A DNA stretch of 23,277 nt from a virus: positions 1 to 23,277 of the IMG/VR virus record IMGVR_UViG_3300021178_000045; one strand, given 5' to 3'. The translations under genes were made by a program, and so were the position numbers. The notes under the pieces are model-generated. The model had not been told where the DNA came from. It was given only the letters and a program-made list of their open reading frames with translations, and ran no database searches. Shown here in pieces: positions 159 through 1,911 of the stretch; the stretch's first letter is position 1; every line of letters begins with the position of its first letter.

Positions 159-556
159 ACCGTGGCTGGAGCCGAATTCGGCTTGCCGTCGCCTTTGATC
201 CAGATCACCTCAGGAACATGGGCATCATCGGTTGAGACGTCCAGATGCACATGATGAGGCTTTCCATTCGTGTCAATGTAGATCCCATATCGCGTAATTC
301 CTACCTGAATCCCCGCTGAGATAATGCGATAGACCTCGTGGTCGTTTTCGACAACCAAATCAACAGCCAGTCCTTGAAGGTGCGCCGAGTCCGAAACTGC
401 TCCAACTGTTGATTCGTTTTGCGCCAATGTACGTAAGCCACTGGTGATTTGGAAAGGTATGCCTGCGATATGTCTAGCTTGATCGAGCTTCGCAACGAAG
501 GTTTCATCAAGGCCAACCACCTCCTCGGGTTTAAAGTAACGATATTCAGGCGGCAT
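155..556 (-). CDS. Endolysin, M15-family peptidoglycan peptidase
   Basis: 133 aa, zinc carboxypeptidase/endopeptidase of the peptidase M15 (D-Ala-D-Ala carboxypeptidase) fold. It should cut stem peptides of the host cell wall at lysis. Visible motifs: QITSGLRT (residues 37-43), SAHLQGLAVDL (57-67), and HHVHLD (101-106). From family knowledge the zinc ligands are His59, Asp66 and His104. No signal peptide or membrane segment is present, so release would need a holin or pore. The ORF is open further upstream to 664, but ATG 556 is chosen because AAAGGAG lies just upstream and the conserved domain begins there. It overlaps the zinc-ribbon ORF before it by 11 bases and the next ORF by ATGA. A virion-associated role is possible; free endolysin is more likely given its size and place. 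Confidence 0.88.
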   Translation of the reverse strand: MPPEYRYFKPEEVVGLDETFVAKLDQARHIAGIPFQITSGLRTLAQNESTVGAVSDSAHLQGLAVDLVVENDHEVYRIISAGIQVGITRYGIYIDTNGKPHHVHLDVSTDDAHVPEVIWIKGDGKPNSAPATV

Positions 557-707
557 TGGTATCTCCTTTGTGTATCCGGTTCGGCGGAATCTCAGGCTTA
601 CTCCAATCCTCGGAAATTTCCACAAGGCATTGAGGACATCGCCAAGACTGACCAAGAGACTCATTCTGCGTCATTTCCATCTCTGACTGACATTTCGGAC
701 ATTTCAT
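546..707 (-). CDS. Small zinc-ribbon protein, 53 aa
   Basis: 53 aa beginning MKCPKCQSEM with a second pair in WRCPQC, giving CxxC-x17-CxxC, the classic four-Cys zinc-ribbon layout. Its ATG (707) overlaps the TGA stop of the 59-aa gene (ATGA), and its 3' end overlaps the endolysin start by 11 bases, so it is embedded in a coupled string. The C-terminal half is hydrophilic and probably disordered. Zinc-ribbon mini-proteins are common in phages, but their function is mostly unknown; nucleic-acid binding or protein docking are the usual guesses. The reading frame is well supported by the motif and the coupling; the function is not. Confidence 0.75.
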   Translation of the reverse strand: MKCPKCQSEMEMTQNESLGQSWRCPQCLVEISEDWSKPEIPPNRIHKGDTNAA

Positions 708-883
708 TCGTTATGGGTAATACCCCTGAATTTTGGCTTTTCAGGAACTTTATGACCCATCTTTTCTGGCAATTTCAATCCCTTGGAAGCCTTATCAAAC
801 TCATTAACTACTTTTGGGCTAATCTCTCCACGTTCTTCCATTGCATGAAACTTACCGCGCTGAGCTTGCGATTTGTATGGCAT
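704..883 (-). CDS. Small conserved phage protein with MPYKSxxQRxxFHA start, 59 aa
   Basis: 59 aa starting MPYKSQAQRGKFHAMEERG. I recognise the N-terminal pattern from small basic proteins often found near phage structural or lysis genes (MPYKSxxQRxFxHA type); their role is not known to me. An AAGGAG site sits 7 bases before ATG 883. The rest is Lys- and Pro-rich and likely disordered. It follows the 75-aa gene by 17 bases and overlaps the zinc-ribbon gene by ATGA. No membrane segment, no Cys. Confidence 0.8.
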   Translation of the reverse strand: MPYKSQAQRGKFHAMEERGEISPKVVNEFDKASKGLKLPEKMGHKVPEKPKFRGITHNE

Positions 884-900
884 TAGTAACTCCTTTCTTA

Positions 901-1128
901 CTATTCTTCATATCGAAGTACTTTCTTAATACCCCAAGAATCAGGTCCATTATCCATAATCCGAATTCCATTGAATCGATGGTTTGGCATTGGCTGATCT
1001 GGCTTAGGACCTCCATCTGAATTCCGGCGCGGAGGATCAAGTTTATCTTGACCACCTCTCTGATCGGCTCCAGTCCCTAACCCTTTTCTGACGGTTTCTT
1101 CATCAATCTTATTTTGTTTCGTTTTCAT
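901..1128 (-). CDS. Hypothetical hydrophilic protein, 75 aa
   Basis: 75 aa, start MKTKQNKIDEETVRKGLGTG, highly charged, Pro/Gly/Asp/Arg-rich, with no membrane segment and no recognisable domain; probably largely disordered, with a short hydrophobic patch near the end (DSWGIKKVLRYEE). Its ATG overlaps the TAA of the preceding 58-aa gene (TAATG), and GGGAG lies 6-7 bases before the start, so initiation is well supported. It is part of a run of five tiny proteins leading into the endolysin. Function unknown. Confidence 0.7.
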   Translation of the reverse strand: MKTKQNKIDEETVRKGLGTGADQRGGQDKLDPPRRNSDGGPKPDQPMPNHRFNGIRIMDNGPDSWGIKKVLRYEE

Positions 1129-1304
1129 TAGGATCTCCCAAACTTATTGTCATAATAGTCGCACTGAATCGTAATGCCCGCTCGTTTCTTTATTTCAGGA
1201 AGTGTCGGTGGTCTAACTTCCTGCGATTTCAATGGTTCTGGTTTTGACACATAATTATCACCAATTGGATTGGGGTTTTTCTGGTTATCAGTCTGGGGTT
1301 TCAT
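1128..1304 (-). CDS. Hypothetical Pro-rich protein, 58 aa
   Basis: 58 aa, starting MKPQTDNQKNPNPIGDNY, hydrophilic and Pro/Lys/Asn-rich, ending in KKRAGITIQCDYYDNKFGRS. The ORF is open upstream to 1364, but GGAGG lies 5 bases before ATG 1304, which is therefore preferred. It overlaps the end of the 78-aa gene by 17 bases. Like its neighbours it begins with MKP and is rich in Pro and charged residues, which could mean old duplication or simply similar composition. No domain recognised. Confidence 0.68.
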   Translation of the reverse strand: MKPQTDNQKNPNPIGDNYVSKPEPLKSQEVRPPTLPEIKKRAGITIQCDYYDNKFGRS

Positions 1305-1524
1305 AAATTCCTCCATAGCGTCTAATTCTTTGTTGCGGTTGTCGTTCCAGCATATCCGGCGCACTCTGAATATCCGCTTTTGCCGCCTCTACTACGTTCG
1401 CAGGATTCTGAGGAAGTCCTGCTTGTTTGTCCTGGACTCCTAATGGCTGATACGTCCCTGATGGATCATGAAAAGTCGAGAAACCTTTACGTGCAAAACT
1501 AGGCTTGTTTGATGGGGGTTTCAT
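1288..1524 (-). CDS. Hypothetical hydrophilic protein, 78 aa
   Basis: 78 aa, start MKPPSNKPSFARKGFSTFHD, followed by a Gln/Pro/Ala-rich middle (NVVEAAKADIQ) and a basic end (QRIRRYGGIYETPD). An AAAGGAG site is placed well before ATG 1524. It is the first minus-strand gene after the plus-strand insert (1542-2092) and restarts the late operon toward the endolysin; no separate promoter for it is obvious, so it may depend on read-through from the genes above 2010. No domain recognised. Confidence 0.7.
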   Translation of the reverse strand: MKPPSNKPSFARKGFSTFHDPSGTYQPLGVQDKQAGLPQNPANVVEAAKADIQSAPDMLERQPQQRIRRYGGIYETPD

Positions 1525-1590: not shown

Positions 1591-1911
1591 ATGACAAAAT
1601 TACCCAGAGTAATGGCGAACATTCCGAAAGACTTGTACAAGAAATTGAAAGAACGAACCAAAAAGGAGAAAACGACCATGTCCAAATTTATCGTCAAGCT
1701 TTTAAAAGCTTCCATGGTTCTTTTCATGTTTAGTCTCAATGCCTGTAAGCGTGATCCTGGAGGCAATGGAAGCACCAGTTTAATCACTGGCTCAACCCAG
1801 CCACCTCCTGTTATTTCAACAAGTCCAGTCACAAATCCCATTGCTCCCCCATGTACCATTTCCACTCAATGCACAAGTGATTACTCGTTTTGCTGGCAAG
1901 TCTGTAATTGA
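1591..1911 (+). CDS. Ribbon-helix-helix sequence fused in frame to a lipoprotein, 106 aa (short form 77 aa)
   Basis: From ATG 1591 (GAGGAG upstream) residues 4-40 read as a CopG/Arc-type ribbon-helix-helix: a short strand PRVMANIP, helix LYKKLKERTKKEK, turn TTM, helix SKFIVKLLK. The second helix runs straight into a hydrophobic core and a lipobox, SLNAC (Cys52), followed by a Pro/Thr/Ser-rich tail with four more Cys (PPPV, NPIAPPC, CTSDYSFCWQVC). A second ATG at 1678 with AAGGAG nine bases upstream would give a 77-aa protein starting MSKFIVKLLKAS, a textbook type II signal peptide with the lipid-modified Cys at 23. So the gene may make a cytoplasmic or membrane-tethered DNA-binding form and an exported lipoprotein. 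Known phage lipoproteins include o-spanins (Rz1) and superinfection-exclusion proteins; the short Pro-rich form could be either. The upstream SD-like bases also encode Lys and Glu, so dual starts are not proven. Confidence 0.72.
   Translation: MTKLPRVMANIPKDLYKKLKERTKKEKTTMSKFIVKLLKASMVLFMFSLNACKRDPGGNGSTSLITGSTQPPPVISTSPVTNPIAPPCTISTQCTSDYSFCWQVCN

Follow-up and report, generated by a model that had tools for sequence, protein, structure and literature searches.

Organization of the locus and its counterparts in related viruses

The window analysed here is a stretch of 23,277 bases, a virus record with matches to portal, capsid, terminase and endolysin, with its major late genes on the minus strand. 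The same virus is represented at ~100% identity by another IMG/VR contig, G001 (37.6 kb), and the putative early genes seen on it are for the most part oriented like the plus strand of the window. G001 also carries, outside the window (L012:18417-19574), a gene for a DegT/DnrJ/EryC1-type aminotransferase (E 1e-66), which is unusual cargo for a phage, and within the window several ORFs between 9739 and 14388 look glycosyltransferase-like by eye. A run of tiny late-strand ORFs of 53-78 aa occupies 546-1524 (minus), several of them with good ribosome sites and one matched at 50% identity in a related virus.

On the plus strand, an open frame of 106 codons (1591-1911) encodes a protein in which a predicted ribbon-helix-helix (RHH) domain is followed by a predicted export signal and a tail rich in Cys. 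The ORF is genuine and constitutes a small accessory gene with its own promoter, inserted in the late-gene block of a phage known only from metagenomes. Its codon usage is only weakly gene-like. The promoter (1542-1570, plus) reads TTGACA-N17-TACACT with a TG-extended -10, and the combination of a perfect TTGACA with such a -10 occurs just four times in the virus, the other three occurrences lying in the early control region. RNA synthesis is predicted to start at about 1577, leaving a leader of ~14 nt before ATG 1591, which follows an AGGAG ribosome site (1580-1584, plus) at a spacing of 6 nt. Since the promoter and the Shine–Dalgarno (SD) sequence place the RHH part at the front of the message, this part should be translated. 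A hydrophobic 55-aa ORF (1925-2092, plus) begins 13 nt past the RHH gene, preceded by an AAAGGAG sequence at 7-nt spacing, and runs into the 3′ end of the opposing late gene. It is probably the second gene of the same transcript; it has no family match, and searches brought up no relative beyond its own virus.

Two 11-mers, AGTGCTGCACT (1547-1557) and GGTGCTACACT (1560-1570), lie 13 bp apart and straddle the promoter of ORF 1591-1911, forming a candidate operator (1547-1570, plus). An exact GTGCTRCACTT has no further occurrence in L012, a 19.6-kb stretch of G001. RHH repressors usually bind tandem short sites, and judging from these repeats the gene is possibly autoregulated. An operator held in common with the early control region was considered and rejected, as GTGCTRCACTT is absent there and TTGACAAACTTGTCAA-type dyads are found instead. 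This putative control region (L012:13560-13830 in G001, outside the window) has divergent TTGACA promoters overlapping the dyads. Amid them lies a 55-aa ORF (L012:13598-13765, minus) that is RHH-like by eye and has no Pfam hit, and a 139-aa ORF adjoining the region (L012:13865-14284) has a match to the RyR domain (PF02026, E 5.9e-9).

Two related contigs, G002 and G005, are roughly 70-80% identical to the window in DNA and 86-90% in terminase. The RHH gene is absent from both, and at this position 83-188 bp separate the flanking late genes. In G002 the interval contains a promoter-like TTGACC-N17-TAAGAT sequence, with a different 6-bp dyad (CCTAGC-AATCC-GCTAGG) in its spacer, together with an ORF (L013:6950-7075, plus) for a peptide of 41 aa that is hydrophobic at the N-terminus and finishes in the Cys-rich sequence DCSCQSCVGY. 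The G005 interval, 83 bp long and only loosely alignable, has TTGATA-N17-TATAAA and a possible hydrophobic peptide of 21 aa without a convincing ribosome site. Promoter-like sites matching at least 9 of 12 positions have a background rate of ~0.9 per kb per strand, and three of them in the same place and the same direction are therefore unlikely to be a chance finding. The comparison suggests that the counter-strand interval is a slot for accessory genes, equipped with a promoter, in which small hydrophobic cargo is swapped. Like a moron, ORF 1591-1911 has a promoter of its own and is not found at this position in close relatives. However, no terminator-like site was found after the plus-strand genes, and for this reason we call the gene moron-like rather than a full moron.

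The probable ribbon-helix-helix domain and export signal

Profile searches bore out the RHH similarity that a preliminary description of this DNA had proposed. Pfam RHH_5 (PF07878) matches residues 5-42 (1603-1716, plus) over nearly the whole of its 43-position model, with E 5.3e-4 for the full-length query and 7.4e-5 for residues 1-42 alone, and Arc-like repressor families rank first in a PHROGs search (E down to 6e-4). The Pfam RHH scores of 20-23 bits (20.1-22.9) stay below the curated gathering cut-off of 26. Because the scores are weak, shuffle and swap controls were run. Composition-preserving shuffles of the 106-aa protein gave no Pfam hit in seven out of seven cases. Residues 1-30 alone reach 12.3 bits against the RHH profile, and joining residues 1-29 to other lipoprotein signal peptides abolished the match in all seven constructs, compared to 22.5 bits with the native continuation. 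As replacement from residue 30 onwards abolishes the match, residues 30-42 must themselves carry RHH-specific signal; the same stretch would double as the n-region of a signal peptide.

A structural model of fragment 1-44 as a monomer contains helices at 13-26 and 30-43 (mean pLDDT 79) and no strand, although a monomer is not informative about the strand-forming N-terminus. Taken singly, the fragment's fold matches in the PDB are weak (E 4-9), and we take at least 17 of the 21 to be RHH proteins, among them Arc, AmrZ, ParG, CdbA, AvtR, MatP and VapB. The full-length model, calculated without relatives, is uninformative: it is a single low-confidence helix from 13 to 52 (pTM 0.30) in which the RHH is not seen, and a fold search with this model returned no match. 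Residues 5-42 are a probable DNA-binding RHH domain, which would dimerize.

The second helix (helix B) passes without a break into a hydrophobic stretch that ends in SLNAC. The hydrophobic h-region (residues 40-51) and the lipobox-like sequence (residues 48-52) extend over 1708-1746 (plus), followed by a predicted exported tail of 55 aa (1744-1908, plus). Charge and composition switch sharply at the hydrophobic stretch: residues 1-42 have a net charge of +10 with 38% charged residues, while residues 52-106 have a net charge of 0, 7% charged residues, 44% Ser/Thr/Pro and 5 Cys. The lipobox announced in the preliminary description is present as a sequence but it is non-canonical, since Asn at position -2 breaks the strict PROSITE PS51257-type pattern and a match is obtained only when the pattern is relaxed at -2. 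The 106-aa protein matched none of the Pfam lipoprotein-site models. Even the relaxed lipobox is rare: among 1309 ATG-started frames from these viruses, 8 contain it (0.6%), and when only frames with an SD-preceded ATG are counted, it is found in a single one out of 180, which is ORF 1591-1911. In view of the composition switch and of this rarity, we hold export of the tail to be likely and lipidation at SLNAC plausible. The hydrophobic core of ~12 residues fits a cleaved signal and is short for a permanent membrane anchor. Two Lys fall within the most hydrophobic 19-residue segment (hydropathy 1.63); cleavage is therefore as likely as tethering.

The proposed combination of an RHH sequence with an export signal is supported by independent tests. 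The fusion is probably real and unusual, and it is known from one virus. The sole homologue of the 106-aa protein is that of the near-identical contig G001; searches of phage, plasmid, viral-contig and genome collections gave no homologue beyond the virus itself. This includes 50,697 phage records screened by tblastn at E up to 1, which yielded no match, and a plasmid collection where matches appeared only at E above 1. Scans of viral sequences that used the terminase alignment, the 55-aa neighbour ORF or the small protein flanking the gene as query revealed no further carriers. One genome match (L018) was rejected as an unrelated lipoprotein that shares ACKRDPGGNG by chance. Searches of open-licence literature turned up no description of an RHH-lipoprotein fusion. 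The earlier remark that no phage family with this arrangement was known agrees with the empty searches of the 50,697 phage records.

Possible products of the gene

Our tentative explanation is that of a moron-like counter-strand gene encoding a membrane-targeted RHH fusion, which would repress its own synthesis and whose tail would be engaged in envelope work. The sigma-70 promoter would produce a transcript from ~1577 that is translated from ATG 1591. The product would consist of a minimal RHH (approximately residues 5-42), a segment for targeting to the inner membrane and export, and a nearly uncharged, Cys-rich extracytoplasmic tail. Given the strongly positive N-terminal part (+10 over residues 1-42), the full-length form should insert with its N-terminus inside and its C-terminus outside, and an RHH dimer would thus be held at the inner face of the membrane. 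There it would probably use the GTGCTRCACTT repeats to damp its own promoter; the tail might, for example, change the surface of the infected cell.

A second potential start lies within the sequence for helix B. As described earlier, the frame contains two ATGs that each follow a GGAG-type site, AGGAG being 6 nt upstream of ATG 1591 and, for ATG 1678, 9 nt upstream (AGGAG at 1664-1668; the whole feature at 1664-1680, plus). Initiation at both would make this a two-product gene, with an RHH-bearing form from 1591 and, from 1678, a 77-aa lipoprotein whose 22-residue signal peptide starts inside helix B. This shorter form would have a signal peptide of ordinary length and layout, with a positive n-region (MSKFIVKLLK) and the h-region ASMVLFMFSLNA. 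In the 106-aa form the n-region comprises ~39 residues, so that the ordinary n-region/h-region arrangement is a property of the 77-aa form only. An internal ATG with an SD is also rare, with a single case among the 6564 codons checked in other genes of this virus, and a spacing of 9 nt is usable. On the other hand it exceeds the 6-7 nt usual here, and Asn at -2 of the lipobox weighs against the lipoprotein as such. Moreover, the AGGAG/AAGGAG preceding ATG 1678 coincides with Lys and Glu codons, and 40% of synonymous recodings of this Lys/Glu-rich stretch produce it. Weighed together, this rate and the rarity of internal ATG and SD combinations make ATG 1678 a possible second start. The two ATGs with their AGGAG sequences are confirmed, but the two-product gene derived from them is no more than possible, because codon choice alone provides the SD-like site so often; we regard it as somewhat unlikely, yet as a serious rival of the membrane-targeted fusion. 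In its most elaborate form, one gene would yield a membrane-tethered RHH autorepressor together with a secreted lipoprotein initiated in helix B; this one amphipathic helix would then serve as n-region as well, and transcription could be subject to feedback from precursor export. Such a scheme is rather improbable.

If only the start at 1678 were functional, the gene would produce a lipoprotein alone and the RHH-like part would serve as a leader or be what remains of a gene fusion. The 77-aa form does by itself resemble a complete small phage lipoprotein. However, the promoter and SD directly precede ATG 1591, and residues 30-42, which belong to the lipoprotein in this reading, carry RHH signal; we consider it doubtful. 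An equally doubtful alternative takes the opposite course: the protein would stay in the cytoplasm as an RHH regulator, its hydrophobic and Cys-rich tail being incidental rather than exported. The RHH is indeed the better supported half of the protein, and neither the strict lipobox nor any lipoprotein-site model was matched. Against this stand the sharp switch to a tail with 5 Cys and 44% Ser/Thr/Pro, which is typical of exported segments, a relaxed lipobox that is rare by chance, and the hydrophobic peptides that occupy the slot in the relatives. That the plus-strand ORF is no gene at all and only the shadow of a late-operon antisense frame (1521-1865, minus) is very improbable, for although this frame has no internal stop and ends in an overlap with the ATG of the next late gene (ATGA), its codon score is below that of the plus ORF, no SD was seen before its GTG, the relatives have just 83-188 bp between the flanking late genes, and the RHH match, the promoter and the SD all favour the plus strand.

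Returning to the membrane-targeted, self-repressing fusion, if it works in the way we propose, a phage would have built a very small membrane-linked regulator of ~100 residues from a minimal RHH, and one helix could have two folding fates. It would also mean that the counter-strand promoter slot of a late operon swaps small hydrophobic-protein cargo between related viruses, which would offer a simple case for studying how phages gain genes acting on the envelope.

Relation to known systems

The N-terminal part resembles the CopG/Arc RHH regulators (RHH_5 PF07878, RHH_1 PF01402 and the Arc-like PHROG families) in residues 5-42, in the predicted helix boundaries and in the short repeats over its own promoter. 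It differs from them in that the scores are below the cut-off and helix B is directly continued by the export signal, with the Cys-rich tail behind it. The DNA-binding domain of ToxR/CadC-type transmembrane regulators is a winged helix. The layout of these proteins, which have been surveyed (PMC10269533), is the same as that proposed here, i.e., a cytoplasmic N-terminal DNA-binding domain, a hydrophobic segment and a C-terminal part outside; in contrast, the protein described here is phage-encoded, has only ~100 aa, and combines an RHH with a short lipobox-like hydrophobic segment. RHH domains are not mentioned in the main text of that survey (PMC10269533).

Rz1-type o-spanins are likewise short, proline-containing, lipoprotein-like proteins, and ORF 1591-1911 lies ~1 kb from the endolysin gene. 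However, it is located on the strand opposite to the lysis and late genes, has its own promoter and is not adjoined by a recognisable inner-membrane spanin; judged by position and strand, membership of this class is not supported.

Small phage lipoproteins such as Llp of T5 and Cor of T1-like phages mediate superinfection exclusion (PMC9586334). The product of ORF 1591-1911 is similar to them as a small lipoprotein-like product of an accessory gene, and early expression would fit its promoter. It differs by its N-terminal RHH part, and membership of the Llp/Cor group is not supported, as tblastn at E up to 1 gave no sequence match in the 50,697 phage records. By analogy and without sequence similarity, Llp-type superinfection exclusion is nevertheless the nearest functional precedent for ORF 1591-1911.
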